Source: an uncultured Acidobacteriota bacterium
GTDB lineage: Bacteria; Acidobacteriota; CAIWXX01
Assembly (NCBI GenBank): GCA_903916735.1
Contig: CAIWXX010000133.1
Location: forward strand, 1 to 61,034
Reading direction: 5' to 3'
Length of the DNA: 61,034 nucleotides
Part shown: positions 24,231 to 60,029 of the stretch, in pieces
How the letters are laid out: the number at the start of each line of letters is the position of its first letter
Position numbering within the stretch: the stretch's first letter is position 1
Program-made: the position numbers and the translations under genes
Notes under the pieces: model-generated
Seen by the model: only the letters and a program-made list of their open reading frames with translations
Databases searched by the model: none
What the model was told of the DNA's origin: nothing

Positions 24231-24233
24231 GAT

Positions 24234-24249
24234 TGTTCCACGTGGAACA
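24234..24249. promoter_or_regulatory. parS site overlapping the parA leader
   Basis: TGTTCCACGTGGAACA is a perfect 16-bp palindrome close to the bacterial parS consensus (TGTTTCACGTGAAACA). It ends three bases before the parA start codon. Confidence 0.9.
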
Positions 24250-24420
24250 TGCGCAGCGTACCAAAGGCGGGAGGGGAAAGGCAAGAGCCGAGCCGTCGAT
24301 CGGAGAATGTAGGTAAAAACGGCCTATTTTATGGGTGTTTTCAAATTGAAAACGCGATGTATGGTCAATGACGGATGGATGACTCGAAACTCATTCGATA
24401 ACACCGGTCGGCTCTGATGA

Positions 24421-28176: not shown

Positions 28177-28215
28177 TCCCGACCACCAGAGAGCGTCTGA
28201 ACTAAACCGCCTCTT

Positions 28216-28734
28216 TCACGAATCCCTCGCGGAGGCTCCTTCTGATGGAGCCGGCGCGATCACAATACGCTTATGAACACCATCGCCAAGGCTGTGGGTG
28301 ATAACGCCGTTGATATTCTGACAGGCAATATGGATGATGCGACGTTCGTAGGGATTGAGTGGTCCTAAGGTGAATTCGGTTCCCAGATTCTTAACCTGAT
28401 CACACCCGACCCGCGCCATCTCGTGTAGTTCGCGCTCCCTTAACCTGCGATAACCGTGACTATCGAGGACAATCGGGATTTCGCCTGTATCCCCCGGCCT
28501 TTCCATACACTTTCTAAGAATATGTTGAAGAGCATTGAGCGCTTCGGCTTTCTTCTGCAAAAATCCGTCACTATCTTCACCCAACATATCGATGCGGATA
28601 TGATCATCGTGATATTCGATAGAAAAGGACACATCCAGATGGAGCTCCAGTAAGCACCGGCTCATGGCGGCAAGGAAATCCTCCAGCCACTGCCGTGCCT
28701 CAGGCCCTACCTGCAACATGATCGCGCTCCTCAC
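28216..28734 (-). CDS. jag: KH-R3H RNA-binding protein (Jag/KhpB type, no Jag_N)
   Basis: A 172-residue protein in the jag position behind yidC, overlapping it by 4 bp. A KH-II-like domain fills roughly 10-90 (DDHIRIDMLGEDSDGFLQKKAEALNALQHIL). An R3H domain fills about 95-160 (LREREL, GPLNPYERRIIHIACQN, THSLGDGVHKRIVI). The N-terminal Jag_N domain found in Firmicutes KhpB is absent, so the protein is short. It likely binds RNA and supports envelope or division control as KhpB does elsewhere. Starts at 28734 or the nearby ATG at 28719 are both possible. Confidence 0.88.
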   Translation of the reverse strand: MRSAIMLQVGPEARQWLEDFLAAMSRCLLELHLDVSFSIEYHDDHIRIDMLGEDSDGFLQKKAEALNALQHILRKCMERPGDTGEIPIVLDSHGYRRLRERELHEMARVGCDQVKNLGTEFTLGPLNPYERRIIHIACQNINGVITHSLGDGVHKRIVIAPAPSEGASARDS

Positions 28735-30347: not shown

Positions 30348-30354
30348 TATTACC

Positions 30355-30564
30355 TTACGGAACGGGATCGTACCCGCCCTTGGAAAACGGCTGACAGCGC
30401 AGGAGTCGGCGAAACCCTAATGATAGACCCTTGAGTGCCCCGTATCGTTTGACGGCTTCGAGTGTATACGATGAACACGATGGATAGAAGCGGCAGGCTG
30501 GCGGCAATAGAGGAGAGACAGCCCATTTATACAACTGAAGACCTAGAATAGCGACTTTTTTCAT
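30355..30564 (-). CDS. yidD: YidD membrane protein insertion efficiency factor
   Basis: A 69-residue protein; the start at ATG 30564 (MKKVAILGLQLYKWAVSPLL) is chosen over a longer frame because it matches YidD N-termini. Hallmarks are the amphipathic first helix, CRFYPSCSSYTLEAVKRYG with three cysteines, and RLLRCQPFSKGGYDPVP at the end. YidD sits at the inner membrane and aids YidC-dependent insertion. It overlaps rnpA by 4 bp and ends 7 bp before yidC. Confidence 0.95.
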   Translation of the reverse strand: MKKVAILGLQLYKWAVSPLLPPACRFYPSCSSYTLEAVKRYGALKGLSLGFRRLLRCQPFSKGGYDPVP

Positions 30565-30893
30565 AGCGCTCTCGCAGCAGCCTCCAGCATGGCGGAACGT
30601 AATTGGCTGTAAGTGGCTCGAACCGGGCGCGTGACCAGAATGACGATGTCCGCATGATCCGAAAACAAGGAACGGTTTCTCCGAAAAATTTCCCTGCTCC
30701 ATCGTTTCAGCTTGTTTCGCTCTACTGCAATCCCGGCCTTTTTGCTGATCGAAAGCCCCAATCGGGTAGGATGCTCACAACTCTTCCGGATGATCAGCGA
30801 GAAATGAGGCGTATGATATCGACGTCCAAAACGGAATGCATCGTCAAACTCGCGCTTCTGGTGAAGTCTCTCGGCCGACCGAAATTTCTCCAC
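30561..30893 (-). CDS. rnpA: Ribonuclease P protein component
   Basis: A 110-residue basic protein that binds RNase P RNA for tRNA 5' processing. The RLHQKREFDDAFRFGRR N-terminus and the conserved RNKLKRWSREIFRRNR helix (canonical RNRxKRxxRExFR) are present. It follows rpmH by 3 bp and overlaps yidD by 4 bp, so all three are one transcript from the promoter at 31068-31096. Confidence 0.95.
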   Translation of the reverse strand: MEKFRSAERLHQKREFDDAFRFGRRYHTPHFSLIIRKSCEHPTRLGLSISKKAGIAVERNKLKRWSREIFRRNRSLFSDHADIVILVTRPVRATYSQLRSAMLEAAARAL

Positions 30894-30896
30894 TCG

Positions 30897-31037
30897 TTAT
30901 GCAGATAATCGCTTGCGGCCCTTTGCGCGACGGCGCTTCAGGACAAGCCGCCCACCCTGTGTTTTCATTCGTGCTCTGAAACCGTGTGTCTTTTTCCTTC
31001 GATGTGTATTCGGCTGAAATGTCCTCTTTCCCTTCAT
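30897..31037 (-). CDS. rpmH: 50S ribosomal protein L34
   Basis: A 46-residue highly basic ribosomal protein. [22 protein letters not shown] and [14 protein letters not shown] match L34. The start at ATG 31037 has AGGAG eight bases upstream, so the longer in-frame extension to 31085 is rejected. It opens the leftward origin operon. Confidence 0.97.
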
Positions 31038-31067
31038 GGCGGCTCCTCTCAGTTCGTTGAACCCAAA

Positions 31068-31096
31068 ACTATAGTGAAACGCCACGAAGCTGTCAA
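31068..31096 (-). promoter_or_regulatory. Strong sigma70 promoter of the rpmH operon
   Basis: Read leftward, TTGACA (31091-31096) and TATAGT (31068-31073) are exactly 17 bases apart. The -10 element ends 30 bases before the rpmH start codon. Confidence 0.85.
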
Positions 31097-31790
31097 ACGG
31101 AGGGCTTCTCTGCGTCGAATCCCTACGCGAATCGAGTTTGTTGCACCGCCGCTCTTAGAAGGCAGTTGCTGGCCGCCACCTGAGTTGCCCACTCTTTGTT
31201 GCAAAGGCAATGACATCACTCCATTCTGTTGTATCTCCGGTGGTTAAGGCTCCATCATCATAATTAACCCCCTCTTGGATGCATCAGCTACCGGCCTTGA
31301 GGTTTAATTTGCTCAGAACATAAAACCGGATCGTTGACCATAATCAGGCTTTGCCGGATGTCACTCTCCTTTTCATCTCTTATGCTCGTGCTTCTTCTGG
31401 CTCTCAAAGTAACGTCCGAAAGCCGGCAAAGCGGAACAGGAGTAATCATGCAATCACGCATGAATAAGTCGAGATACAAAGGCGCGGATCACGGGGATGT
31501 GGGAACCACCTTTTAATGCCGGCCTACGGTCGCCGCTTCACACGATGAACCCATCGCCTAAGTGGAAATACGTATTACCGAATGATGAAAGTATTGGTAC
31601 TCATTTATTAATAAACTGCAAGAAAGCGACGACGTGAGTTGGCATCGCGGAAATCACTGAATTTGGCTAAAAATCCGCAATTTTCTTTATTATTTTGAGA
31701 TTTATCGACTTTTCCACGTAAAACGGCGACATATGGCTCCAAAGGATTTCCAGATTCTTTTTATTGGAGCTGTTTTAGTGGGCGAATCGC

Positions 31791-31820
31791 TTGAATTGGT
31801 CGTCAGCTCTGTGCTATCCT
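31791..31820 (+). promoter_or_regulatory. Possible dnaA promoter
   Basis: TTGAAT (31791-31796) and TATCCT (31815-31820) are separated by 18 bases. The DnaA box pair lies downstream of the predicted start, consistent with repression by DnaA. Confidence 0.4.
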
Positions 31821-31877
31821 GGGAAGGTTCAGAATGATGAGAATGATGCCTCCTCAATCAACTGGGTTTTCAACAGG

Positions 31878-31898
31878 TGTGGAAAAATCTGTGGAAAT
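31878..31898 (-). promoter_or_regulatory. Pair of DnaA boxes upstream of dnaA
   Basis: TGTGGAAAA (31878-31886) and TGTGGAAAT (31890-31898) are spaced 12 bp start to start, about one helical turn. They lie about 50 bases before the dnaA start, so they may also autoregulate dnaA. Confidence 0.7.
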
Positions 31899-31945
31899 TC
31901 TTAACGTAAGAAAAAATTCATATTTATTTAACATTATCTCATATT

Positions 31946-33265
31946 ATGAGGATTGAAACTGTGAATGCTTGGGACAGGGCTCTGAAAGCACTCGCAACAG
32001 AAATCGAGCCGCTGGACTTCAACACCTGGATCAAGCCGATTGTCTTTGTCGGGCAAAAAGATGATTCAATCCATCTGGAGGTTCCAAGCCCAACCTTCAA
32101 AGAGAGGGTCGAGAACTCATTTGGAGAAAAAATCATCAGGGCCCTTCAACAGGTTTCACATATCACAAACGTGGTATTTTTTGTGAGGATCGTATCTGAG
32201 AAAAAGGCTCCGATCGAGAACTTCTCTCCGGTTTCCGCACCTCCTGCCGAAACGGGGCTGAATTCCCGCTATACATTCGATAAGTTCGTTGTCGGAGCTA
32301 GCAATCAATTTGCGCACGCAGCCGCGATGGCCGTTTCGAAATCCCCGGGTCAATCGTACAATCCCCTTTTCATTTATGGAGGTGTCGGACTGGGCAAAAC
32401 ACATCTCCTCAATGCAATCGGAAATCATATACACCAGACCTATGCCGGACTGAATGTTATCCTGATGCCTTCGGTGAGCTTCATGAACGAGTTCATCAAT
32501 GCGATGCAGAAGGAACGCATCCCGGAGTTCAGGATGAAATTCAGATCTGTCGATGTACTGCTCATCGACGATATTCAATACATTGCAGGAAAGGGAAAAA
32601 CGAGTCAGGAATTCTTTTTCGCCTTTAATCATCTTCACGACCGGCGCAAGCAAATTGTCATCTCAAGCGATTCGGCACCGAAAGATATCCGCGACCTTGA
32701 GGAACGACTTCACTCACGTTTCGAGTGGGGACTCGTAGCAGACATCCGTCCACCTGATCTCGAAACGAAAATAGCCATCCTAAAAAGAAAAGCCAACATA
32801 GATAACATCGATCTGAACGACGATGTGGCCCTTTTCGTTGCCAGCAAAATCAAATCCAATATTCGTGAGTTGGAGGGCGCTCTCACGCGCCTCGCAGCCT
32901 TTGCATCTCTAAAGGGTGTTGAAATCAGCATGGCATTGACAAAAGAAGTTCTGCGGGACTTCATCAACCTGGAAGAAAAAGTCATCACCGTTGAATTGAT
33001 CCAAAAGGTGGTTGCCGAAGAATACTCTCTCAGAATCACCGAACTGAAATCCAAAAACAACGCCCAGAAAATTGCTTTCCCTCGCCAAGTGGCGATGTAT
33101 ATTTCGAAGGAATTGACAGAAGATTCACTCCCTGAAATCGGAAAAGCATTCAGCGGAAAGCACCATTCAACCGTCATTTATTCCATCGCCAAGATTGAAG
33201 CTCTCCGCAAGTCCGATCCGGAATTTAACAAACAAATCAACAGCATAATTGAAAGATTTCGCTAG
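31946..33265 (+). CDS. dnaA: Replication initiator DnaA
   Basis: A 439-residue AAA+ initiator that binds DnaA boxes and melts oriC. Domain I (about 1-85, LDFNTWIKPI) recruits helicase. A short linker of about 20 residues is domain II. Domain III has Walker A GGVGLGKTH (145-153), Walker B VLLIDDIQ and the sensor region HDRRKQIVISSD. Domain IV ends with the DNA-binding signature AFSGKHHSTVIYSI. DnaA boxes flank the gene on both sides. Confidence 0.98.
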   Translation: MRIETVNAWDRALKALATEIEPLDFNTWIKPIVFVGQKDDSIHLEVPSPTFKERVENSFGEKIIRALQQVSHITNVVFFVRIVSEKKAPIENFSPVSAPPAETGLNSRYTFDKFVVGASNQFAHAAAMAVSKSPGQSYNPLFIYGGVGLGKTHLLNAIGNHIHQTYAGLNVILMPSVSFMNEFINAMQKERIPEFRMKFRSVDVLLIDDIQYIAGKGKTSQEFFFAFNHLHDRRKQIVISSDSAPKDIRDLEERLHSRFEWGLVADIRPPDLETKIAILKRKANIDNIDLNDDVALFVASKIKSNIRELEGALTRLAAFASLKGVEISMALTKEVLRDFINLEEKVITVELIQKVVAEEYSLRITELKSKNNAQKIAFPRQVAMYISKELTEDSLPEIGKAFSGKHHSTVIYSIAKIEALRKSDPEFNKQINSIIERFR

Positions 33266-33469
33266 GTTTTAGATAATTGTGGATATGATAATTAGAATGA
33301 GAACGCTTATCGGTCAGTGGCAGAGGATTTTAACAGTCACACCGATGTTTTCCTGGATATACAGACCGTTTTATCAACAGGCAAAATCACACATGACAAA
33401 CGGAAACAAACGGTTTTTTGTGTTATCAACAACCCTTCTTAACCCTTTTATTAAAATCTAATTAAAAAA
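33266..33469. other. Downstream oriC module (dnaA-dnaN spacer) with likely unwinding element
   Basis: This spacer contains DnaA-box-like 9-mers ATATCCACA (reverse strand, 33279-33287), TTATCAACA (33371-33379) and TTATCAACA (33423-33431). The last box is followed by a strongly AT-rich run to the dnaN start (33432-33469), a good candidate for the DNA unwinding element. Boxes beside an AT-rich run downstream of dnaA resemble the incC/DUE arrangement of bipartite origins. Confidence 0.72.
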
Positions 33470-34582
33470 ATGGAATTCACAGTAAAGAAATCTGAGCTCG
33501 AACACAACCTGCAATTGATGCAAGGAGTTGTGGAAACCAAAATCACGATGCCTATTCTGGCGAACATACTCATCCAGGCTGAAGATGAGCAGGTGCGTCT
33601 CAAAGCCACTGACCTGGAGGTTGGTATCGAGACGACGATGCCATGCAATCTGAAAAGCCCGGGATCAACGACTATCAATGTTAAGAAACTCTATGAATTT
33701 GTCAAGAGCCTCCCTGATGACGAAATTCATTTTGCCCGGGAGTCCGATACACGGATTAATATTACATCCAAGAACGTTGTCTTCAAGATTGCGGAAATGC
33801 CATCGGTCGAGTTTCCACGGCTGCCTGATTTTCCAGTCGATGGCAATTTGCGACTGAAAGGGCTTCTTTTTTGCGATCTTCTCAAAAAGATTTCGTTTAA
33901 CTTGGTCGTTGACGATAAGAAACAGCACCGTGGAAGTCTTTTTGTCATGACGCCGGATTCGATCATGCTAGTCGCTACCGATGGTCACCGAATGACATAT
34001 ATCAAGAAAGAACAGGAATCATTCGATTTACCTGTGGATCTTCCGGAATACCGTCTGTTGCTGAATCGCAAGGCTATTCAGACGATTCTCCGTATTCAAC
34101 CAAGCGAAGAGATTGAAATGTCGCTCGGCGAGAATCACATCTTTTTCCGTATCGGATCGACGATAGTATCGTCCAGACTTCTGGAACTCAAGTTCCCGAA
34201 ATATGACAAGGTTATTCCCCGAGGCAATGACAAGTTCCTGAAAATTGGCGTTGATTCATTTCTGATCAGCCTGAAGAGAGCCTGTCTCGTGACGAATGAT
34301 AGGGCTCATCCTGCACAGATTACGATGAGTGGGCATCAGGTGGAGCTCCGTTCGATCGGCGCTGAGATTGGGAGTGAGCACAGGGAGCCGCTTCAAGCGG
34401 AATACGATGGAGAAGATCTGGAGATACGCTTCAACGCGCAGTATCTCATCGATTTCCTGCAGGTGGTCGGTTGTGAGCATATCAGGATGGAGTTGAAGGA
34501 CGCCGATCGAGCCGTTCTCATCAGGCCGATGGGTGAAATGTCCTATGAGTATTTATACGTCCTGATGCCGATGAGGATATGA
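33470..34582 (+). CDS. dnaN: DNA polymerase III sliding clamp (beta subunit)
   Basis: A 370-residue clamp made of three similar domains. The N-terminal LEHNLQLMQGVVETKITMPILANILIQAE, the middle VVDDKKQHRGSLFVMTPDSIMLVATDGHRMTY and the C-terminal EYLYVLMPMRI are typical; the MPMR-type C-terminus forms part of the peptide-binding pocket. It encircles DNA and tethers polymerase and repair proteins. recF, which often follows, is missing; gyrB comes next after 77 bp. Confidence 0.97.
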   Translation: MEFTVKKSELEHNLQLMQGVVETKITMPILANILIQAEDEQVRLKATDLEVGIETTMPCNLKSPGSTTINVKKLYEFVKSLPDDEIHFARESDTRINITSKNVVFKIAEMPSVEFPRLPDFPVDGNLRLKGLLFCDLLKKISFNLVVDDKKQHRGSLFVMTPDSIMLVATDGHRMTYIKKEQESFDLPVDLPEYRLLLNRKAIQTILRIQPSEEIEMSLGENHIFFRIGSTIVSSRLLELKFPKYDKVIPRGNDKFLKIGVDSFLISLKRACLVTNDRAHPAQITMSGHQVELRSIGAEIGSEHREPLQAEYDGEDLEIRFNAQYLIDFLQVVGCEHIRMELKDADRAVLIRPMGEMSYEYLYVLMPMRI

Positions 34583-34602
34583 TCGCCATCATATTCCTCT
34601 GA

Positions 34603-37065
<2,463 letters not shown>

Positions 37066-37088
37066 GGAAACCCGGAGAACCCTGAACT

Positions 37089-39629
37089 ATGGAACCGATC
37101 GAGCAGAAGATACCTGTCAACATCGAAGATGAGATGCGCCACGCGTATCTTGACTACGCCATGAGCGTCATCATCGGGCGGGCCCTGCCGGATATCCGCG
37201 ATGGTTTGAAACCGGCTCACCGACGAATCCTCTATGCGATGTTCCGCGAGGGACTTCTTTCAAACCGCAAGTACTCAAAGTGCGCCGGTATCGTCGGCGA
37301 GGTTTTGAAGAAATACCATCCCCATGGTGATGCCGCCGTTTACGACACACTGGTCCGAATGGCGCAGGACTTCAACATGCGGTATCTGCTCGTTGATGGT
37401 CAGGGAAATTTCGGCTCGATCGATGGAGATCCGCCCGCTGCATATCGGTATACCGAGGCTCGTCTGACAAAACTGGCCGAAGTCCTCATGGAGGATATCG
37501 ACAAGGAAACGGTCGATTTCCTTCCAAATTTCGATGAGACAACAACCGAGCCCCGCGTGCTGCCGGCTCGCTATCCCAATCTGCTCGTGAACGGCTCCGA
37601 AGGAATTGCCGTCGGCATGGCGACGAAAATTCCACCGCACAATCTCGGCGAGGTGATTGACGGGACGGTCCATCTGATCGAGAATCCCGAAGCGACGCTC
37701 GAAGACATGATGCGCTTTATTCCAGCGCCGGATTTCCCGACGGGTGGGTTCATCTGCGGTGTTGAAGGCGCCGCACAAGCCTATCGGACCGGCCGTGGGC
37801 AGGTCATCACACGGGCACATGCGGTCACGGAAAAACTCGGCAAGGGCGATCGCGAAATGATCGTGATCACGGAAATCCCTTACCAGGTCAACAAAGCCCG
37901 TCTCATCGAGAAGATTGCCGATCTGGTTCGCGAAAAAAGGATCGAAGGAATCACGGATCTGCGGGATGAGTCGAGCCGAGAAGGGATGCGGATCGTCATC
38001 GAATTGCGCCGCGATCAGGAACCGGCAATTGTCCTGAACAACCTCTATCTTCACACCCAGCTTCAAACATCGTTCGGCATCATCCTTCTATCCATTGTCA
38101 GCGGCCAGCCGCGAACTCTTCCTCTCCTCGATATGCTGCGCCTCTTTATTCAGCACCGCAAAGAGGTTGTTCGGCGCCGGACGGAGTACGAGCTGAGAAA
38201 AGCCGACGCTCGTGCTCACATCCTCGACGGTCTGCTCATCGCCCTTGACAACCTCGATCGAGTGATCGCTCTCATTCGCGCATCGAAAACGGTTGACGAG
38301 GCACGAAGCGGACTCATGTCCTCCTTTTCCCTGACGCGGATCCAGGCTCAGGCCATCCTCGACATGCAACTCCAAAAGCTGACTGGGCTCGAACGCGAAA
38401 AGCTCCAGCAGGAGTATGCCGAGGTTCAGGCGGCCATCGCTCGATACAAAGAGATTCTTGCGAGTGGGTCATTGCTCCTCAATATTGTCCGTGACGAGCT
38501 GCTTGAGGTCCGCAAGGATTTCGCCGATCCGCGGCGCAGCCAGATCATCGGACCGATTAATGGAATCCGCACAGAGGAATTGATTACAGAAGAGGAGATG
38601 GTCATTACCGTCACTCATTCCGGCTATATCAAGCGGACGCCCATCACGACCTATCACAGCCAGAAACGCGGAGGCAAGGGCCGGATCGGCATGCGCATGA
38701 AGGAAGAGGATTTCGTTGATCACCTCTTCATCGCATCGACTCACAGCTATATCCTGTTTTTCACCGACCGTGGAAAAATGTATTTGTTGAAGGTTCACGA
38801 GATTCCGGATGTTGGAAGTGCGGCGCGCGGGAAGGCGATTGTCAATCTGATCGGAGTGGCGATGGCCGCGACGAGCGATGGAGCGCCTGTGGCTGCTGAG
38901 CGCGTTCGCGCACTGCTGGCGACAAAGGAGTTCAGTGAAGATCGCTTTGTCATCATGGCGACAAAGAACGGCATCGTTAAGAAGACTCAGCTGGCGGCGT
39001 TTGCCAATGCGCGGGCCAGCGGCATCATCGCCCTCGGCATCGAAGAAGGCGATGAATTGCTCGATGTCAAACTGACCGATTCGCAGAGCGAGGTGCTCAT
39101 CGCGACCAAACTCGGCCAATGTATCCGGTTCTCCGAAACCGATGTTCGATCGATGGGACGCACGGCGATTGGCGTCTATGGAATCCGGCTTGATGAAAAT
39201 GATTGCGTCATCGGAATGGATGTTATTGCGCCTGCTGAGACACGCACACTTCTCACGGTGACACGCAACGGGTATGGAAAAAGGACGCCGCTTGAGGAGT
39301 ACCGCCTGCAGGGACGGGGCGGAAGCGGTATCATCAATATCAAGGTCACCGAGAAGAATGGTGATGCAATCGGAATCGCATGTGTCGGGGATACCGATGA
39401 GATCATATTCATCACAACACAGGGCATGATCATTCGCATGCGGGCCTCCGACATCTCCACGATTGGTCGTGCGACTCAGGGTGTCCGCGTGATGGATCTT
39501 GAAGAAGGCGACGAGCTCTCAGCCATCGCGAAGTTGCCGGAGCCCGAGGAAGAGGCGGCTGATGAAAATGGTGAGTCCGAATCGGAGCCGCAGCCCCAAG
39601 AGCCAAATGGAAATGATGATGTCTCATGA
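37089..39629 (+). CDS. gyrA: DNA gyrase subunit A
   Basis: An 846-residue breakage-reunion subunit. The catalytic Tyr121 is in [10 protein letters not shown]. The C-terminal beta-pinwheel carries the GyrA box as QKRGGKG, confirming gyrase rather than topoisomerase IV. The quinolone-resistance region reads [11 protein letters not shown]: Ala82 replaces the Ser that is residue 83 in E. coli, while the acidic Asp86 (E. coli 87) is kept. The tail is a long acidic Glu/Asn-rich extension. The next gene overlaps its 3' end. Confidence 0.98.
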
Positions 39630-49702: not shown

Positions 49703-49849
49703 ATGATTGATGCCGACATGGATGAATTCCTGATCGCAGCGGTTATGATCTCAAAACAAATTCTGGAATCGATCGATAATGTGATTCCTGATCAAGCGGC
49801 ATTGTGCGTGTATAATAGGGTCGCGGAATGCACATGCGGATATTCATAA
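49703..49849 (+). CDS. Possible 48-residue protein upstream of transglycosylase gene
   Basis: The ATG at 49703 has a very good ribosome site (AAGGAGAGGG, eight bases before). The product begins MIDADMDEFLIAAVMISKQI and is acidic and helical, ending in CTCGYS. It overlaps the start of the transglycosylase gene by 22 bp in another frame, which could couple their translation. No family is recognised. Confidence 0.45.
   Translation: MIDADMDEFLIAAVMISKQILESIDNVIPDQAALCVYNRVAECTCGYS
49811..49816 (+). promoter_or_regulatory. -10 element directly before the transglycosylase start
   Basis: TATAAT is a perfect -10, ending 11 bases before ATG 49828 and 17 before ATG 49834. The -35 region is weak. If used, the transcript would be leaderless or nearly so. 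Confidence 0.35.
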
Positions 49850-52164
49850 CTCTCTTTTCATGCCTCATCGGCGTTGCCCCCACTGTGCTCGGAGCAAAGC
49901 TTGAGGAATTGACGGCGCAGGTTCGGACATTCCAGGCGGAGGGAGCCACCGCCAAGGCTCTCTATGCGCTGCAGGAAATAGAACGGACGGACGCATCGGC
50001 CTTTGAGGTCAACAATTACCCATACCTGGCCGGACTGCTCGCTAGCCAAATCGGAAAAGATGATCTGGCGAAGCACTACCTTGAAATGGCGCAGCGGTCG
50101 AGAGAGCTTTTTGAGTACGCCGCTCGCGGCCTCGCCGCTCTCTCGCGTCAACGGGGGAATGCTGGAGAGGAACGGCGCTATCTTGAGCAACTGATGAACC
50201 GCCGCGGTTCCATCCTGGCTGATGATGCCGCGTATGAGCATGCAATGAGCTACTTTCGCGAAGGGTCCTTTGAGAAGGCGCTCGCGGAATTGACGGGCAG
50301 GAATCTGGCCGGGAACGATCTTCTATTTGAACGCATCCAGTGCCTGCGGGCGCTCGGGCGCGACGCCGAGGCATCCAGGCTCGTCAGCACCGCCCTCCGT
50401 TCACGACATCAATCCGATGGCCTGCTGAAAGCACTCGGACTGATTGAGCTGAATGAAGATTCACAGGTGATTGATCATCTGCCGACAGATGAGATCACGC
50501 GACGCGGGGATCTGTATTATGAGAACCGTAATTTTGAACGAGCTCTTTACTATTACCGTATCCTCTATGATCAACGGGGTGTCACCAGCCAGAAGCTCAT
50601 CTACATGATGGGGCGAACTCTGGATGGAGCGGGGCGAAAGGCCGATGCGCTCGCCTGGTTTGCACAAGCAGAGGCATCGCTCGGTTTCAGCTACAAGTTC
50701 TGGGCTGTGTGGTTTCAGGGAGAAATTCTGTTCAAGCGGCAGGATTTTACACGGGCTGCAGAGACTTACCGTCGCGCACTCGAATTGGCCTCAACCTCGC
50801 AGCAGGACCTCTCTGTGCGCCTCCGCATCATGAGCTGTCAGATGCTGTCCGGCCAAAAGGAAAGAGCTTTAGCGACGATGACGGAAATCTTGGAACGGCA
50901 TCGGAGCATGTTTTCCTGGATGAGATTCGTCGCGGTCAAGGAGCTCGTCGACCTTGGAAAACTCGCCGATGCCGTCGAGAAAGTCCAGGCGATGCTGACG
51001 AGTGAACCCATGAGTTCGCGTGCGGAGCTGCTTTACTGGAGGGGCGCGTTGCAGGAGCAGGTGGGCAACCTGGGGGAGGCGATTGCCTCGTATGACACGA
51101 TCCTCCGGCTTCATTCGCAGAGTTTCTACGCGAAACTAGCCGAAACGCGCCTGGCCGAGACCTCGCTGGATTCCCTCACTAGCACCTACGCTGAAGACCT
51201 TGCCCGTGCCAAGGCCTCTCTTTCCGCCGGCCAGATTGAAGAGAGTCGAAAAGAACTCTCATATCTCTATCATCGATATCCTCTCCGCCAGGTCGAAGTG
51301 GCCAGGATTCTGCAGGATGTCTACCAAAGGCTGCCGCGATATCGCGATTTTCTGGTCTTCGATCTACTGCAGCCACGACCGTTACTCACCGCCGCGGTTC
51401 CGGATTCGAAGCCGCGAAGCCGCGCTGAGGATCTCGCCTTTCTCGGCTGCTTCGATGATGCCGCTAAAGAAATGGACGCTGCTCGCGGAGGGCGCCTCGT
51501 TTCGATCTCGACGCTCCTCACGATTGCGGATTATTATCAACGTGGAGGCCTGCCGTATCTCGCCATGCGGCGCGCTGAATCGCTGATGAGCCTCACACCG
51601 GGCGGCTACGAGTTTGATCTCCTTCCTCGACGAATGAAAGAACTCCTTTACCCGCTGAGTTATTCTACGATTGTAGAAAAATCAGCCCCTTCTGATCTCG
51701 ACATTGCGCTCTTTTACTCCCTCATACGTGAAGAGAGTCGTTTTAATACCCGCGCACGCAGCCCGGCCGGCGCGCGAGGACTTCTTCAGTTTATTCCGAG
51801 CACCGCATCGCTCATCATCAAAGAGATGGGACGAGGGACCCTCCGGGATGACGACCTCTATGATCCAGATCTGTCGATCCAGATCGGCTCCTATTATGTG
51901 GCCAAGCTGACGCGGCAATTTTCGCAGAAACCGGCCCCTGCACTTGCTTCTTACAACGCCGGCGAGGAACAGGGGAAACTCTGGCTCCGGATGGCCGGGA
52001 CCGGTGAACTCCACGAATACCTGGCCGAAGTTAACTATCCGGAAACACGGAACTATATAATGAGGATCATGATCGGTTATTATCGGTATCGGTCTCTCTA
52101 TCCGAGTCTGGCGGAACGCGATCAGGGGGCAACGGGAGGGGCACGGCCGACAGGCGGCTCGTGA
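49828..52164 (+). CDS. slt: Soluble lytic murein transglycosylase (Slt type)
   Basis: A 778-residue exported enzyme that cleaves peptidoglycan to 1,6-anhydro-muropeptides. A signal peptide (RIFITLFSCLIGVAPTVLGA) is followed by a long superhelix of TPR-like repeats (about 25-600). The C-terminal lysozyme-like domain has catalytic Glu636 in IREESRFNTRA, then SPAGARGLLQFIPSTA, YDPDLSIQIGSYY and LASYNAGEEQG. It is the first large gene of an envelope operon with the DUF4388-like and peptidase genes. Start at 49828 or 49834; no ribosome site is evident. Confidence 0.93.
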   Translation: MHMRIFITLFSCLIGVAPTVLGAKLEELTAQVRTFQAEGATAKALYALQEIERTDASAFEVNNYPYLAGLLASQIGKDDLAKHYLEMAQRSRELFEYAARGLAALSRQRGNAGEERRYLEQLMNRRGSILADDAAYEHAMSYFREGSFEKALAELTGRNLAGNDLLFERIQCLRALGRDAEASRLVSTALRSRHQSDGLLKALGLIELNEDSQVIDHLPTDEITRRGDLYYENRNFERALYYYRILYDQRGVTSQKLIYMMGRTLDGAGRKADALAWFAQAEASLGFSYKFWAVWFQGEILFKRQDFTRAAETYRRALELASTSQQDLSVRLRIMSCQMLSGQKERALATMTEILERHRSMFSWMRFVAVKELVDLGKLADAVEKVQAMLTSEPMSSRAELLYWRGALQEQVGNLGEAIASYDTILRLHSQSFYAKLAETRLAETSLDSLTSTYAEDLARAKASLSAGQIEESRKELSYLYHRYPLRQVEVARILQDVYQRLPRYRDFLVFDLLQPRPLLTAAVPDSKPRSRAEDLAFLGCFDDAAKEMDAARGGRLVSISTLLTIADYYQRGGLPYLAMRRAESLMSLTPGGYEFDLLPRRMKELLYPLSYSTIVEKSAPSDLDIALFYSLIREESRFNTRARSPAGARGLLQFIPSTASLIIKEMGRGTLRDDDLYDPDLSIQIGSYYVAKLTRQFSQKPAPALASYNAGEEQGKLWLRMAGTGELHEYLAEVNYPETRNYIMRIMIGYYRYRSLYPSLAERDQGATGGARPTGGS

Positions 52165-52174
52165 GTGTGACCCG

Positions 52175-53530
52175 ATGCAAGAGATCAGCGAGCAGGGGTC
52201 CTTCGACAGCACGACCTTGGGTGATTTGCTGGCGCGGATCTGGAAGTGGCGCTTCACGGGCAGTCTCCGGGTGGATTATCGCAAGTCGATGCGGATCCTC
52301 ACTTTCAAAGAAGGCGATGTCGTTGGAATCACATCGGATCGGAGAGAAGACTCAATCGATGAGTATATTCGTCGAAGCGGTGCATTGAGCGAAGAGCAGA
52401 TCGCGACGGTTCTCGAAAGAAAGCCACTGGAGCAGGAGACCGCCACAGCCTTTACCGAATCAGGCATGCTGACGGCGAAAGAGTGGGGGGAGATTACAAA
52501 GCGCCAGATCGTCACCGTGATGGCCTCGATGCTCCCCGCCGGCGCCGATGCCCGATATCTCATACAACCCTCTCGGATCGAATGGAACGGGCCGACTTTT
52601 CCGATCCCGGAGATCCTGCTGGCAACGATCATGGCATGTGAAGATCGTCACTGGATCGCCGAGAAACTCGGGATGGAAATAATTCTCGATCCCGGTGTCC
52701 CACTCGATGCGACGCTCCTGCAGCCATACGCGGAGGCCGTGCGGCTCCTGAACCTGGCCGATGGAGAACAATCGGTTGAAGATATTTGCCGGAGTTCCTC
52801 TCAGGATAATTTTTTTGTTTGCAAGTTTCTCTATGCCCTGGAAATTCTCGGCGCGTTGCTCAGGCGGCAAGACCCGTCTGAGCGAAAAAAGGGGCGGCGA
52901 CTTCTGATCCGTAAAGAAGAGCCCCCGGCCAGTGGACATACTCCTTTCCCCTTGTTGGAATCGCTGGCCGCCAAACAACGCCGATATCTTCGACCTCTCT
53001 GGTTCGCGGGAAGTCTCATCGCCATCGCAGGACTCCTTGTCACGGCAGCGTTCTTCTATCACAGATGGAGGAATCGCCCGACGCCTCCCACTCCTGAAGC
53101 CACAGTGAAAGCGCCGACATTTTTTGCAGAAACTCAGCCAGGCTCTTCCCCTCAAACGGCACCTCAATCACAGCCGGAGGCGAAAGTTGTGGATCCGCTG
53201 GTGGCTGCCGCACGCGGCGGCGATATCGATCTTGCCGCTACAATCAGCAGAGAGCGCCTATTGAAGGCGGGGCTCAACTTCTATGTCATCGTCCTTGAGA
53301 TTGACTGCCTTCCCAAATCGGTTCAGGAGGCCTTTTTAGCCGGACATGAGAGCTCATCCCTGTTTGTCATATCGACCATGTACAGGGGTCGGAAATGCTA
53401 TAATGTTTGCTGGGGTCTTTATCGAGCATGGACGGTGGCGCAGAACGACACAGCTCATCTTCCCGAGTATTTTCGCCGCCAGGGAGGATATAAAGTTGTT
53501 CTGCTTGCCGATTTGCTCGTGACAGATTGA
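52175..53530 (+). CDS. DUF4388-like membrane protein with SPOR-like C-terminus
   Basis: A 451-residue protein. Residues about 8-120 resemble the DUF4388/PatA N-terminal domain (TTLGDLLARIWKWRFTGSLRV, KSMRILTFKEGDVVGITSD, LSEEQIATVL). A helical middle part follows to about 235. A single transmembrane helix lies at about 275-295, then a Pro/Thr/Gln-rich linker. The last about 85 residues (NFYVIVLEIDCLPKSVQEAF, FVISTMYRGRKCYNVCWGLY, YFRRQGGYKVVLL) have the alternating strand pattern of a SPOR-like peptidoglycan-binding domain. It may link a cytoplasmic signalling domain to wall binding. It starts 10 bp after slt; its stop overlaps the possible TTG start of the next gene. Confidence 0.75.
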   Translation: MQEISEQGSFDSTTLGDLLARIWKWRFTGSLRVDYRKSMRILTFKEGDVVGITSDRREDSIDEYIRRSGALSEEQIATVLERKPLEQETATAFTESGMLTAKEWGEITKRQIVTVMASMLPAGADARYLIQPSRIEWNGPTFPIPEILLATIMACEDRHWIAEKLGMEIILDPGVPLDATLLQPYAEAVRLLNLADGEQSVEDICRSSSQDNFFVCKFLYALEILGALLRRQDPSERKKGRRLLIRKEEPPASGHTPFPLLESLAAKQRRYLRPLWFAGSLIAIAGLLVTAAFFYHRWRNRPTPPTPEATVKAPTFFAETQPGSSPQTAPQSQPEAKVVDPLVAAARGGDIDLAATISRERLLKAGLNFYVIVLEIDCLPKSVQEAFLAGHESSSLFVISTMYRGRKCYNVCWGLYRAWTVAQNDTAHLPEYFRRQGGYKVVLLADLLVTD

Positions 53531-54882
53531 ACCCGATGTCGTGGATTCGCTTGGAAATTGCGATCTGGCTTCTTATTGGAAGCATGCCTCTTCAGGCCGA
53601 TATCCTGCATTTTAAGAATGGCGGTCGGATCGAATGCGATGAAGCCTGGATCGAGGGCGACACGGTTTGTTACCGGATCTCAGAGGGAACACTCGGCTTC
53701 CCTCTGCCATTGCTCGAACACATCGAGAAAACCGATGCGCCGGCCATTTCGAGTTCTCCGCGGCCTCCACTCCCCCCTGAACAACCCGTGGCCCGACCCT
53801 GGAGGCCGCTCCCGGTAGATACGAAGAACCCTGCCTATCGACGCGCCGAGGAAGCTCTGGCCCGCCGTGATTACGAAGCTGCGATCCAGGCATTGACCGG
53901 CGTCGAATCATTACCGGCCGGCCTGATGCTCGGCTATGCCTATACGCGGCTTCGGCGGTATCAAATGGCATTGACTGTTCTGGAACCTTATCAGGTCCAG
54001 AGCAGCGACAACGCCGATCTCAACTATCTTCTCGGCGAGTGCCACTATAATCTCGGCCATGACGAGCAGGCTATCAAATACCTCGAACAGTCGCTTCACA
54101 TCGAAGACAATCCCGCGATCCGCGATCTTCTGGAACGGATCCAGAGGCAGAATGCGATTATTGGTTCAACGGATTTTCTGAGGAGCACGCACTTTCTCCT
54201 GAGATATGATCGCGCGAGCGATGCACGACTCGCCCAGCGCATTCTCGATGTGCTAGAGAAATCATTTGTGAACCTGCAGAAAGTCCTTTCCTTTTCGCCG
54301 GAGGAAGAAATCCAGGTGATCGTCAGTGGACGAAGACAGTTTTACGATATCACGCGAGCGCCTGAATGGAGCCTTGGGATCAACGATGGCCGCATCTTCC
54401 TTTCGATCGGCGGAATTGATGATCTTAATGATGTATTGGAACGGTCGATCTCCCATGAGCTGGCACATACCTTTCTCCATGATTTGACACATGGAAATAC
54501 GCCGGTGTGGTTGAACGAAGGGCTGGCCATGTATCTGACAGGTGAAAACCAGGATGACTATACGCAAATCCTCGCGCAACGCGCCTCTGCGGACAATCTC
54601 ATACCGCTCGCAGCCCTCCAGAGTTCCTTCAAGGGGTTTGCTGGGGCGGAGAGTGCCGAGCTGGCCTATGCCGAAGCATTGTTGGCCACAAATTACCTTG
54701 TGAGTCTCTACGGATTCAACGAACTGAACAGACTGCTTGGTCTTCTGGCACAAGGAATCCCATTTGAGGAAGCCCTCCATGAGAGATACAAGCTTGACGT
54801 GTTGGAACTTGAGCGCAAGGTGAAGGAGTTTCTTCTGTCAGCGGCCGCGCGCTATCCGAGTGAAGGAATCAGGGTCCGGTAA
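53527..54882 (+). CDS. Secreted gluzincin (peptidase MA-like) metallopeptidase with TPR
   Basis: Exported by a signal peptide (IRLEIAIWLLIGSMPLQA). An SH3-like opening (ILHFKNGGRIECDEAWIEGDTVCYR) is followed by TPR repeats at about 105-205 and a peptidase domain from about 215. The zinc site is HELAH at 310-314, with Asn330-Glu331 (WLNEGLAMYL) supplying the third ligand, the gluzincin pattern. The start could be TTG 53527, which overlaps the upstream stop (TTGA), or ATG 53536, three residues later. Substrate is unknown; wall peptides or envelope proteins are plausible from the operon. Confidence 0.88.
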   Translation: MNPMSWIRLEIAIWLLIGSMPLQADILHFKNGGRIECDEAWIEGDTVCYRISEGTLGFPLPLLEHIEKTDAPAISSSPRPPLPPEQPVARPWRPLPVDTKNPAYRRAEEALARRDYEAAIQALTGVESLPAGLMLGYAYTRLRRYQMALTVLEPYQVQSSDNADLNYLLGECHYNLGHDEQAIKYLEQSLHIEDNPAIRDLLERIQRQNAIIGSTDFLRSTHFLLRYDRASDARLAQRILDVLEKSFVNLQKVLSFSPEEEIQVIVSGRRQFYDITRAPEWSLGINDGRIFLSIGGIDDLNDVLERSISHELAHTFLHDLTHGNTPVWLNEGLAMYLTGENQDDYTQILAQRASADNLIPLAALQSSFKGFAGAESAELAYAEALLATNYLVSLYGFNELNRLLGLLAQGIPFEEALHERYKLDVLELERKVKEFLLSAAARYPSEGIRVR

Positions 54883-54904
54883 CAGGATCGCAGCGCGGCC
54901 GAAC

Positions 54905-54940
54905 TTTTTTCCACAGCCGTCGAAAAAAATGTGGAAAAAA
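54905..54940. terminator. A/T-rich hairpin, possible two-way terminator with DnaA-box arms
   Basis: TTTTTTCCACA (54905-54915) and TGTGGAAAAAA (54930-54940) form a perfect 11-bp stem with a 14-base loop between two convergent genes. The loop-distal A/T runs could act as U-tracts in both directions. Each arm also contains TTTTCCACA, the same 9-mer as a DnaA box at oriC. Confidence 0.5.
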
Positions 54941-55000
54941 TAAGACACACCTATTCCTTGTGGTTTTATGCCCAGGACCCACAATAGATAGGATGCGATG

Positions 55001-56038
55001 TCAGGCTTCTAACAGGAGCTTTCTGACAGTTTGATCCCATGTCAATTGCGCCATTCTGGCGCGACCCGCTTCTCCAAGCCTTTCCGCTAATCCTTTATCG
55101 CCGGCGACTTCGGAGACAACTGATGCGATGCTGGAAGGATCGGCTTTGACGACGAATCCGTTACGCTGATGTTCGACAAGCTCGGCCGCCCCGCCACTAT
55201 CCTCGCACGTGATGACAGGCTTCCCAGACGCGAATGCCTCGACACTCACAAATCCGAAATCTTCATTCCGCGGACCAAAAAAAACAGCCCGACAGCGAGC
55301 GTAATAGTTGAGGAGTTCTTCTTCGGAAATGTGTCCGACAAGAGAGATGCGTTCTTCTAGCCCGAGGTCCTTGATGAGCGAGGCGAGCGCGCCATGCTGT
55401 TCCCCATCTCCGGCGATCACCGCGCGCAAGCCACATGTTTTGAGCGAAAGTGCCTTGATGAGAAGATCTTGGCGCTTGAGCGGCGTGAGGCGCGAGGGGG
55501 CGAAGATGAAATCATCGAAAGATTCACATCGATAAGCTCGCTGAGGGGGCGGCGGATAGAGGACGTCACTGGCAAGGTTGCCCCATTGGAGAAGCTGCCC
55601 CTGGACGGTTTGTGACAATGCATAGAGTTTTGTGAGACGCCGGAGAAAATAGCCGTCGGCCGTGTGAATGGACATTCTCCGGATGCGCTCCTTCAGAGCG
55701 CCTTTCCAGCTCAGTCGTGCCTTCCAATCCGGCCAAAGATCGTAGTACTCCCGCATCCGATGTAACAGCCAGCAGACATGTCGTTCATGACGGAGCGCAT
55801 AGCTTGGAAAGCGCAAAGAGATGATCTGGTCGATCCTCGCATTATCGCCGGCCAGGCCGACATCGGTCAAGTAGGTGGCGGCGTAGGCCGCGAATTGGCG
55901 TCCAAATCTGTTTTGAGGCGTGTAGAGGGTCGCAGCTTCGATCCCGTACTCTCGCAGCGCCTTCACCAAACTATCAGCGATGATGCGATGTCCGCCATGG
56001 ATGAACGGTACATCCGATGTCGCAACCAAAACCTTCAT
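55001..56038 (-). CDS. GT4-family glycosyltransferase
   Basis: A 345-residue GT-B glycosyltransferase. MKVLVATSDVPFIHGGHRIIADSLVKAL is the acceptor-domain opening. The donor domain has FIFAPSRLTPLKRQDLLIKAL, AVIAGDGEQ, RISLVGHISEEELLNYYARCRAVFFGPRNEDFGFVSVEAFASGKPVI with the E-x7-E pattern, and GGAAELV. It overlaps the membrane TPR gene by 4 bp and is the last gene of the ATPase-TPR-GT4 operon. Substrate unknown; the coupling suggests it serves whatever that operon builds. Confidence 0.9.
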   Translation of the reverse strand: MKVLVATSDVPFIHGGHRIIADSLVKALREYGIEAATLYTPQNRFGRQFAAYAATYLTDVGLAGDNARIDQIISLRFPSYALRHERHVCWLLHRMREYYDLWPDWKARLSWKGALKERIRRMSIHTADGYFLRRLTKLYALSQTVQGQLLQWGNLASDVLYPPPPQRAYRCESFDDFIFAPSRLTPLKRQDLLIKALSLKTCGLRAVIAGDGEQHGALASLIKDLGLEERISLVGHISEEELLNYYARCRAVFFGPRNEDFGFVSVEAFASGKPVITCEDSGGAAELVEHQRNGFVVKADPSSIASVVSEVAGDKGLAERLGEAGRARMAQLTWDQTVRKLLLEA

Positions 56039-57732
56039 GACGCGCCCGGTATCCCTTTCCGAGACATATCAATGACCGTTTCTCCAAGCCCCATCCCGTG
56101 TGCCGCCGGTTCCTGAGGTTGAGGCTCGGCGGACTTGAGCATCCGGTAACGGCTTTCAGCATCCATGAAATGAAAATCCTTCATAATAATGCCCTGATAG
56201 ATCTCAATCGCTTCGGTCTTCCGGCCGAGGACCTCGAGGACGCGCCCGAGGTGATAGGGCGCGTCCAGAGACTCCTCGGGGTCCAATGGCATACAAGTAG
56301 CCAGCCTCAGTTCCGGTTCGGCTAGTTCCGGTAGGCCTTTGGCCATGAATGATCGGCCAAGCAGATAGCAAACAGCGCCCGATGGCTCATGCCGCCTCTT
56401 CAGCTGCTGCAGGGTCTTGATGGCTTCGTCGATATTGTGTTCCTTCCAATGAATTCGCGCGAGCAACATGAGAGCTTCTTCATCATCGCCGGCATGCATT
56501 TCCAGAATCTGCCGTGCGCGCGTCATATCCTGCGATTCATAGCAGGATCGGGCAGCCTGGAGGGTCGTGTCTGGCGACTTGAGATAGGCCTCGATCGCCT
56601 CCTTCTTTTTTCCCGCGGAATCGAAAAGCTCGCCGGCCCTTCGATGCAGTCCGGCTTCGTCATAAAGCTGTGCTGCTCCGACCACATCGTGGAGCTCAAA
56701 TTCGGCAATTTCGGCGGCGCGCTGTAAATTCCCTTGGAGCCGAAAGAGGGACACCGCCTTTGCGTATTGCCGGGCCTTCACATAGAGCTCCGGGGACGGC
56801 GCTTTTCCAGCGCTCTCGATCGCTTGCAGCGCCTGTTCAGGCTCTCCGCACTTTTCCAAAAGTTCGGCGGCGCGTTCGTGTTTGCCAAGTTGAAGACACA
56901 GCTTGGCGGCGGCTGCGATCGTGCCCGATCGTTCGTACATGACCAGCGCATCTTCCAGGCGACCGGCTCGAAAGTACATCTCTCCGGCTCTGAAGAGGTC
57001 CCCTGCCTGCTTGTACAGCTCCGCGGCGCGAAGCCATTGCCCTCCCCTCTGGGCCATGTCGGCGCTCTTTTCAAAACTTCCTTCCTTCTCGTATAGGTGC
57101 CCTGCCTGAACAAACTTGCCTTCATCCTCTAATTGCAGAGCGTTAACGGCCTGTTTTGGCTTCTCAGTCCCGGCCATATCGTTGAGAAAACCAAGACCGA
57201 TAAAAAACAGGATGACAGCGTAATAGAACCAGTAGATCAATGGAATGGCAATCGCGGCCAGCTGCAGCCTCTCATGCACGATCTCTTGCCAGAAGAGATT
57301 GACGAAAAAGGATCCAAGGATCATAAGGCCCATCGGCCCATAGACATGGATCATTCCGAGATCTGCAATCAATCGATGCTTGGTTTGGACCAGCCTGAAA
57401 AGGAGGTGGATTACGAGAGGCGGCAGCGCATAAACAGCAACATCAGCAAGGAATCTGAAAAAGCCCGTTGTCGAGATTCGCCCGAAGGCGAGGAAGTAAA
57501 CGGCGCAGGCGGACATGAGGAAGAGAATTCGAGAAAGGCTCTGCGACTTGAAGCCGAAGATGAAAGTGCAGGCAGTCGTGAGAAGGGCCGCCATCATCTG
57601 GAGGAGGCTTTCTTCGAATTGCGATCCAGCAAGACAGATCACCAGGATGATGCTGAAAGGGAGGATGGCCAGGAGAATCTCACGAGGGGATTTCCCTTGA
57701 AGGAATTTATCGAATTCCGGGCGCATAATCAT
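56035..57732 (-). CDS. Polytopic membrane protein with long TPR domain
   Basis: A 565-residue protein. The first about 190 residues contain about six hydrophobic spans (for example ILLAILPFSIILVICLAG, LSRILFLMSACAVYFLAFG, GPMGLMILGSFFVNLFW, LIYWFYYAVILFFIGLGFL). From about 200 to 540 there are degenerate TPR/SEL1-like repeats rich in AAELYKQAGDLFRAGEMYFRAGRLEDAL-type units. The repeats are probably cytoplasmic and would suit scaffolding of the ATPase encoded next to it. It overlaps both neighbours by 4 bp, a strong operon sign. No known machine component is recognised. Confidence 0.8.
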   Translation of the reverse strand: MIMRPEFDKFLQGKSPREILLAILPFSIILVICLAGSQFEESLLQMMAALLTTACTFIFGFKSQSLSRILFLMSACAVYFLAFGRISTTGFFRFLADVAVYALPPLVIHLLFRLVQTKHRLIADLGMIHVYGPMGLMILGSFFVNLFWQEIVHERLQLAAIAIPLIYWFYYAVILFFIGLGFLNDMAGTEKPKQAVNALQLEDEGKFVQAGHLYEKEGSFEKSADMAQRGGQWLRAAELYKQAGDLFRAGEMYFRAGRLEDALVMYERSGTIAAAAKLCLQLGKHERAAELLEKCGEPEQALQAIESAGKAPSPELYVKARQYAKAVSLFRLQGNLQRAAEIAEFELHDVVGAAQLYDEAGLHRRAGELFDSAGKKKEAIEAYLKSPDTTLQAARSCYESQDMTRARQILEMHAGDDEEALMLLARIHWKEHNIDEAIKTLQQLKRRHEPSGAVCYLLGRSFMAKGLPELAEPELRLATCMPLDPEESLDAPYHLGRVLEVLGRKTEAIEIYQGIIMKDFHFMDAESRYRMLKSAEPQPQEPAAHGMGLGETVIDMSRKGIPGAS

Positions 57733-59183
57733 TCGAACTCGCTTCGCAGCGGAAGCACGCGGAGGGACTCGTCCAGAGAGGTTTCGCCTTTGAAGGCAAA
57801 ATCCAGGCCGTTTTCATCCAGCGTTTTGATGCCGCTCGCACGAAACTCCTTATGGATCTGCTCGGATGTGGCCCGTTCAACGATCAATTTCCTCACAGAC
57901 TCATTGATTTCGAGAATCTCGAAAATCCCCTTTCTTCCAGCATACCCCTTCATATTGCACTTGGGACATCCAACGGGGCCATAGAATACGGCGTTTGCAG
58001 GAAATTTTCGATTAAGCTTGGCTTCCTGGCCGGGAGTTATTTGCTCGACGCGTCGGCAGTGGGGACAGAGTACTCGGACCAGACGCTGAGCCACGATGGC
58101 TGTTATGGCCGAGGCGACAGAATGAGGATCGACTCCCATTTCGATCAAGCGGAGAGGGACCCCGGCGGCGCTTTTTGCGTGCACCGTCGTGATGATGAGG
58201 TGTCCTGTCATGCCCGCTTGAATCGCGATGCGCGCCGTATCAAGGTCCCGAATTTCACCAACCATAATGATATCAGGATCTTGGCGCAACATCGTTCGCA
58301 AGCCTTTACCGAAAGTAAATCCTTGCCCCTCTTCGATCTGTGTTTGATTGATGTTGAGGAGGTCATACTCGATCGGATCCTCAAGAGTGTATATCGACAC
58401 TGTATTCTGGCTCAGCTTCAAGATCGCTCGCAGAGCGCAATATATGGTGGTCGTTTTTCCGGATCCTGTTGGGCCGGTAAGAATCACCATACCCTGAGGG
58501 CGTGAGAGGATGGATGTGAGTGTCGAGAGTTGCGCCGTCGTCAGGCCGATATGCTCCAACCCGAATTCCACTTCAGCCCTGTCTAGCAGTCGCATGACGA
58601 CGCGTTCGCCATGTAGTGTCGGCATGAATGCAATCCTAAGGTCCATCCGTCGATTTCCCACGGCGATATCGAAACGCCCGTCCTGGGGTTTGTCATGAAC
58701 ATATGTGACAAGTACCGATAGCACTTTCAATCGGTTTGTGAGGGCCTCCTTGAGATGGGCGGCGAGGTGAGCGACATCGGTGAGTATCCCGTCGATGCGA
58801 TAACGTACAGTCAGGAAATCACGGTACGGAACAAGGTGGATATCCGATGAATTCACAGCAACGGCTTGATGGATAATGTAATCGACGAGTTGAGGAATAT
58901 CAGGATTGGAGCTCCGATTGTATGTCCCGATCACTGCCTTGATTCTTTCCGGGTCATGCGGTTCAAAAGAACTGCGGTGAGGCGATGTAACCGGCACCGG
59001 GAGGAACGATCTCCGGATTGTCCGGACGAGAAGAACCACAAACCCGAGTCCCGCTGCTCCAATTCCAATGGTCCACATCAGTTGAAGAGGAATTTGTATG
59101 TCAAGCTTGGTGAGCACGAAAACGCACCCAGCCAGCGCCAAAAGGGTCATGAGGATAACAGCCGGCATCGATGAGGTTCTCAT
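57729..59183 (-). CDS. GspE/PilB-like ATPase with two N-terminal membrane helices
   Basis: A 484-residue type II secretion/type IV pilus-family ATPase. The core is complete: VNSSDIHLVPYRDFLTVRYRIDG, Walker A GPTGSGKTTT (237-246), TLEDPIEYDLLNINQTQI, Walker B DPDIIMVGEIRD, the His box TGHLIITTVHAKSA, and a zinc tetracysteine Cys373/376 and Cys406/409. The usual cytoplasmic N-terminal domain is absent; instead two transmembrane helices lie at about 7-25 and 35-54. A membrane-anchored ATPase of this class is unusual. It is the first gene of the operon with the membrane TPR protein and GT4. Confidence 0.9.
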   Translation of the reverse strand: MRTSSMPAVILMTLLALAGCVFVLTKLDIQIPLQLMWTIGIGAAGLGFVVLLVRTIRRSFLPVPVTSPHRSSFEPHDPERIKAVIGTYNRSSNPDIPQLVDYIIHQAVAVNSSDIHLVPYRDFLTVRYRIDGILTDVAHLAAHLKEALTNRLKVLSVLVTYVHDKPQDGRFDIAVGNRRMDLRIAFMPTLHGERVVMRLLDRAEVEFGLEHIGLTTAQLSTLTSILSRPQGMVILTGPTGSGKTTTIYCALRAILKLSQNTVSIYTLEDPIEYDLLNINQTQIEEGQGFTFGKGLRTMLRQDPDIIMVGEIRDLDTARIAIQAGMTGHLIITTVHAKSAAGVPLRLIEMGVDPHSVASAITAIVAQRLVRVLCPHCRRVEQITPGQEAKLNRKFPANAVFYGPVGCPKCNMKGYAGRKGIFEILEINESVRKLIVERATSEQIHKEFRASGIKTLDENGLDFAFKGETSLDESLRVLPLRSEFE

Positions 59184-59291: not shown

Positions 59292-60029
59292 TCAGGCAGA
59301 GCGATTAAAACCGTGCCGGATTAAGTTTGTGTTCCTTACAGGCAGGGCTTTCACAATTGTCGAACGGACATTTTCTGTCAGTATCTGACGATCGGTTGAG
59401 GGATCGACCGGGACAACCGGGTGAATTGTGACGCTCACTGGAGCCGCGGATCTCAGCCATGCCGACCCCTTCGGCAAGACGCGATGGCTTCCATCGATCG
59501 TGACAGGCAGAATGGGCAGGTTGTAGGTCAAAGCCAGGCGGAATCCACCGAATTTGAACAGTCCGGGCTGCCCGTCGTAACTTCTGGTGCCTTCAGGAAA
59601 GATCACCAGCGAGACGCCCTTTTTCACTTTCTCAGCAGCCAACATGAGTCCGCGAGCTCTTCCCTGCCGGCTCTTCCGGTCGATCGGTATATGGCCGGAC
59701 AACCACAGATGCCACCCCAAGAAAGGAATCATAAATAGGGGTTTCTTGGCCATAATCCGGAATTGAAGCGGCAGATATGCGAAGAGGATTGGAATGTCCA
59801 GGTGCGATTGGTGGTTCGCCATGACGATATAGGATGAGCCAGTATGAATGTTTTCCATGCCCTGCAGGCGAATCCGGACACCGCAGGTCACGAGGATACA
59901 TCGGGACCAATATCGTGCAATCACATGAGAAAGCCGTCCAGAAGGGCTGATGATCAGTGCGAGGAGGGACAGAGATCCCATGAACATCGTGTTGATGACG
60001 AGGATAGGAATTGCGTATAGCGATCGCAT
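59292..60029 (-). CDS. plsC: 1-acyl-sn-glycerol-3-phosphate acyltransferase
   Basis: A 245-residue membrane-associated acyltransferase that makes phosphatidic acid. The catalytic NHQSHLD motif (His73, Asp78), IPIDRKSRQGRARG and FPEGTRS (Glu146-Arg149 region) are the PlsC motifs in order. Hydrophobic N-terminal residues (about 6-28) anchor it to the inner membrane. It stands between the ATPase operon and the RDD gene with spacers on both sides. Confidence 0.92.
   Translation of the reverse strand: MRSLYAIPILVINTMFMGSLSLLALIISPSGRLSHVIARYWSRCILVTCGVRIRLQGMENIHTGSSYIVMANHQSHLDIPILFAYLPLQFRIMAKKPLFMIPFLGWHLWLSGHIPIDRKSRQGRARGLMLAAEKVKKGVSLVIFPEGTRSYDGQPGLFKFGGFRLALTYNLPILPVTIDGSHRVLPKGSAWLRSAAPVSVTIHPVVPVDPSTDRQILTENVRSTIVKALPVRNTNLIRHGFNRSA

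Follow-up and report, generated by a model that had tools for sequence, protein, structure and literature searches.

The window, the 61,034-nucleotide stretch of DNA analysed here, encodes a GspE/PilB-family ATPase in which a predicted two-helix membrane hairpin replaces the N-terminal MshEN/N1 domain. The ATPase is a genuine, though narrow, variation on a known motor family, found in two genomes of one small class. Its gene is followed by genes for a polytopic TPR protein and a GT4-family glycosyltransferase. Tentatively, the ATPase may be an auxiliary, membrane-tethered GspE/PilB-type motor that has the TPR protein as its adaptor and serves a filament platform whose genes lie elsewhere in the genome.

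Gene order and surroundings

The window is one contig of a 183-contig, 5.37 Mb draft Acidobacteriota genome (G000). Its three minus-strand ORFs were confirmed at the coordinates first given and are co-directional and tightly packed (Table 1). The sequence-only reading had described 4-bp overlaps between them, and both ATGA overlaps are present in the DNA. A second in-frame ATG follows 6 bp into the TPR gene (57726), nearer to where the sister gene starts; the ATPase/TPR overlap is therefore less certain than the TPR/GT overlap and may be mere abutment. Overlaps this short are commonplace in bacterial operons. A fourth gene, which that reading overlooked, lies 108 bp upstream of the ATPase gene and encodes an acyltransferase.

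Table 1. Coordinates of the cluster and of the features of its products (window positions)
Feature	Position	Strand	Basis
GT4-family glycosyltransferase, 345 aa	55001-56038	-	ORF, Pfam, hydropathy
ATGA overlap TPR/GT, 4 bp	56035-56038	-	read from DNA
Polytopic TPR protein, 565 aa, possible start 57726	56035-57732	-	ORF, Pfam, hydropathy
TPR superhelix, residues 208-535	56128-57111	-	predicted structure, mostly high pLDDT
About six-span membrane domain of TPR protein, residues 19-178	57199-57678	-	hydropathy, relatives search, model
ATGA overlap ATPase/TPR, 4 bp	57729-57732	-	read from DNA
GspE/PilB-family ATPase, membrane-anchored, 484 aa	57729-59183	-	ORF, Pfam, NCBIfam, alignment
Walker A GPTGSGKTT, residues 237-245	58449-58475	-	sequence and alignment
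Two-helix membrane hairpin, residues 6-53, replacing MshEN/N1	59025-59168	-	hydropathy; also in sister
PlsC-type 1-acylglycerol-3-phosphate acyltransferase	59292-60029	-	Pfam, NCBIfam; same place in sister order

The locus had been judged unlike any recognised type II secretion or type IV pilus arrangement, and the Pfam scan of the window and the whole-genome searches agree. No pilin, secretin or platform family occurs among the Pfam-scanned window genes, and all secretin and platform matches from the whole-genome searches lie on other contigs. The combination of platform, pilin and secretin with an ATPase that defines such a locus is therefore absent here. Pfam scans of the cluster and its flanking genes also returned no flippase, polymerase or ABC exporter.

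The operon converges on a block at 49828-54882 that encodes a TPR-lytic transglycosylase, a DUF4388 protein and a TPR-peptidase MA, the last two in genes that overlap by 4 bp. At 54880-55010, where the GT and peptidase MA genes converge, is an A/T-rich inverted repeat (TTTTTTCCACA ... TGTGGAAAAAA) that, by eye, is possibly their shared terminator. The window genes include dnaA, dnaN, gyrB, gyrA, parA/parB, yidC, mnmE and mnmG, which points to a probable replication-origin region. It lies at 22618-39629, with parB/parA, gidB, mnmG, mnmE, an R3H protein gene and yidC on one side and dnaA-dnaN-gyrB-gyrA on the other.

Family and catalytic core of the ATPase

The families first proposed for the three products, a secretion-type ATPase, a TPR protein and a GT4, were recovered by Pfam. 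The ATPase is a member of the T2SSE superfamily (PF00437; 389 bits against a gathering threshold of 24.9, 2e-116, residues 96-475), and among solved structures GspE and PilB are nearest to it. Its best NCBIfam match is the GspE equivalog TIGR02533, at 450.8 bits against a cut-off of 630.25; it scores 424.8 bits against the PilB equivalog TIGR02538 (cut-off 675.65) and 230.8 bits against the ComGA model NF041000 (cut-off 300). On these sub-cut-off scores and the missing MshEN domain, a plain GspE or PilB identity was rejected.

Alignment reading recovers the Walker A motif, Asp box, Walker B motif, His box and CxxC...CxxC zinc motif. Both orphan ATPases, those of the window and of the sister genome, are atypical in the segment before PQDGR (T160, V/I162, D164) and in the His box (A336, K337; TVHAK). 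All five positions are invariant or nearly so across 34 canonical homologues, and the departures may alter partner contacts.

GspE (TIGR02533; PDB 1p9r, 4ksr) and the window ATPase have in common the N2 domain, the ATPase core, the Asp, Walker B and His boxes and the tetracysteine zinc motif. The window ATPase instead carries the hairpin for N1, the altered His box and the altered pre-PQDGR segment, and no GspF or other Gsp gene lies close to it. The core and zinc motif are also those of PilB, the type IVa extension ATPase (TIGR02538; PDB 5tsg, 5zfr), and the window ATPase is about 40% identical to the PilB-like ATPase encoded on contig C120 of its genome; however, the window protein is tethered, lacks MshEN and does not adjoin PilT/PilC. 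The competence pilus ATPase ComGA (NF041000) matches in the core, whereas the window ATPase has the hairpin and no comG-like genes nearby.

A quick tree of the ATPases groups the two orphans with each other at 100 SH-aLRT, outside the PilB rows. The branch that links them to L095 was marked as a possible long-branch artefact, and the pair is accordingly given no deeper placement. A structure model of the ATPase built from two sequences had a mean pLDDT of 33.6, too poor for use.

The N-terminal membrane hairpin

Two hydrophobic peaks at the N-terminus bear out the earlier description of the protein as a membrane ATPase. Pfam finds no match to MshEN (PF05157), the mark of PilB/MshE-type assembly ATPases, in the protein; the domain is present in the genome's ATPases on contigs C120, C82, C165 and C85, and one of the C94 pair has it too. 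A comparison set of 35 other GspE/PilB-like ATPases was drawn from Acidobacteriota genomes and the window's own genome. An N-terminal membrane segment is predicted in both orphans and in none of the 35, and the core is preceded by at least 166 residues in every one of the 35 but by about 95 in the window ATPase.

Full-length matches to the ATPase came from its own genome and the sister only, among 396 phylum genomes searched, and the next-best matches cover residues from about 91 onward. Plasmid-borne relatives were considered and rejected: all are below 60% identity, and the matches listed begin at or beyond residue 48, so the hairpin is uncovered by any of them. The literature searched, with partial coverage, held no published description of a hairpin-anchored GspE/PilB variant, which is weak evidence.

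The TPR protein

The TPR protein had been called six-span, in keeping with six hydrophobic membrane peaks in the window copy; the sister copy has five. In its structure model residues 208-535 form a confident superhelix, whereas the membrane domain is poorly resolved. By the positive-inside rule the superhelix is predicted to be cytoplasmic, and the charged loops suggest that both ends of the protein are too. Loop charges in the hydropathy output likewise place the ATPase domain on the presumed cytoplasmic side, with the TPR domain.

Among 40 relatives of the TPR protein, the membrane domain is matched by the sister alone, and the others cover essentially the TPR repeats. A genome-collection scan with two membrane-domain peptide patterns, short enough that distant relatives could be missed, found one locus (JACPPM010000060.1, a groundwater Acidobacteria MAG), which is the sister. 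A fold search with the TPR model returned only generic TPR superhelices at low TM-scores. Among solved structures, LapB shows a weak TPR similarity. LapB and other membrane-linked TPR proteins combine a membrane segment with a TPR array at the cytoplasmic face, as here; LapB has one membrane span whereas the window protein has about six, and the likeness is that of generic TPR repeats only. The protein was also considered as a diverged GspF/PilC and rejected for want of detectable similarity (hhalign probability 0.2%).

The glycosyltransferase

The glycosyltransferase belongs to the GT4 family (Glycos_transf_1, 9.5e-29), with the EX7E motif read as EDFGFVSVE and no membrane span predicted by hydropathy. 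Full-length orthologues at 41-58% identity occur in 13 other genomes of the phylum among the 40 searched. Their tested neighbours include LpxC, HhH-GPD (DNA repair) and UbiA proteins, often LpxC or HhH-GPD. None of the ORFs called in 11 such neighbourhoods matches the ATPase or the TPR protein. ORF calling may select a wrong frame where G+C content is high, but the six-frame ATPase matches listed for these genomes also lie on other contigs or, in G002, about 50 kb away. Since the orthologues are widespread without such neighbours, the GT4 is not tied to the motor. This distribution, and the lack of an adjacent flippase or pilin, leave the surface-glycan export or glycosylated-appendage module first proposed without support, and it was dropped as the leading reading.

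Filament platforms and other motors

The genome has 12 T2SSE matches, but platform matches occur on three contigs only (C120, C82 and C165), where each has its own ATPase close by. The window itself encodes another PilT-like T2SSE ATPase, of 495 aa, at 7848-9335. On contig C94, locus L107 (4215-7790) encodes a tandem pair of diverged GspE/PilB-like ATPases whose N-termini are cysteine-rich; C94 has no platform match, and sister contig C70 carries a similar adjacent ATPase pair.

Conservation in the sister genome

In the sample the class is represented by two genomes of one family, the window genome and its sister (G001). The sister has the same acyltransferase-ATPase-TPR-GT order, with identities of 66, 66, 50 and 70%, respectively. 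Gaps of 47 and 264 bp lie between its ATPase, TPR and GT genes in place of the 4-bp overlaps, which are thus not conserved. The genes upstream of the four-gene order differ between the two genomes. DNA comparison of the surrounding 19 kb found that a MutL-Dus-GT2 block (sister contig C313) and an SLT-DUF4388-peptidase MA block (sister contig C305) are also kept; the sister's AMP-ligase gene is on the same contig as the four-gene cluster. Because these other blocks are conserved as well, the shared order is only modest to weak evidence of joint function. The sequence-only reading had looked to relatives for repeated linkage, and the outcome is mixed: the sole class-level relative does keep it, whereas no other sampled genome of the phylum has the ATPase variant or the membrane TPR protein.

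Proposed mechanism and alternatives

One of the type IV filament platforms encoded elsewhere in the genome may use the ATPase-TPR pair as an auxiliary motor. The hairpin would tether the hexameric motor to the inner membrane. The TPR protein would be the inner-membrane adaptor that positions it, in the docking role otherwise filled for N1 by PilM or GspL. As envelope enzymes, the GT4 and the acyltransferase would be co-expressed with the motor but not part of it. This reading draws on the strong T2SSE match with GspE and PilB as nearest solved relatives, the scores below both equivalog cut-offs, the hairpin found in both orphans and none of the 35 other ATPases, the MshEN domain of other ATPases in the genome, the platforms encoded elsewhere with ATPases of their own, the loop charges that put the ATPase and TPR domains alike in the cytoplasm, the order shared with the sister, and the wide occurrence of the GT4 without the pair. 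Weighing against it are the sample of two genomes from one family, the conservation of neighbouring blocks between them, and the departures of the ATPase at conserved positions. We infer that an auxiliary motor on a resident platform is the simplest mechanism, with a putative contact between the ATPase and the TPR protein. PilB docks in a PilM socket, and the contribution of N1/MshEN is poorly understood (PMC11656802). ATPase duplication and specialisation occur across the type IV filament superfamily (PMC6668835), a pattern that the window ATPase fits as a new variant.

A rather unlikely account, though one to be taken seriously, is an operon of convenience, in which the ATPase and TPR protein may be functional and the cluster has no single function, its order reflecting gene packing and residual synteny. 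The overlaps are of an ordinary kind and absent in the sister, neighbouring blocks in the same 19 kb are conserved too, the GT4 is unlinked across the phylum, and the acyltransferase is a generic PlsC. However, the four-gene order survived although the upstream genes differ, and within the sample the same two genomes alone have the ATPase variant and the TPR protein. It is improbable that the six-span TPR protein replaces GspF/PilC and is driven directly by the tethered ATPase, for filament assembly or inner-membrane transport. The lack of a nearby platform gene, the pairing of a tethered ATPase with a polytopic protein, and a membrane domain unique to two genomes in the sample are consistent with such a machine; the lack of detectable similarity to GspF/PilC, the absence of a recognised pilin or other substrate nearby, and three resident platform loci available in trans argue against it. 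It is very improbable that such a TPR-based motor constitutes an undescribed inner-membrane machine confined to this Acidobacteriota class.

The envelope enzymes invite another reading of low probability, an envelope module in which motor, TPR protein, acyltransferase and GT4 work jointly to assemble or export LPS or a glycolipid. The pair is flanked by PlsC and GT4, the TPR protein weakly resembles LapB among solved structures, and GT4 orthologues adjoin LpxC in some other Acidobacteriota. Yet the resemblance to LapB is generic, the cluster has no flippase, ABC exporter or polymerase, and to our knowledge no role in glycan export is established for ATPases of the GspE/PilB family.

The scope of the hairpin-ATPase finding is narrow, at two genomes so far. 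This natural N1-less, hairpin-anchored protein with an adjacent candidate partner would offer a simple test of whether tethering can replace docking.
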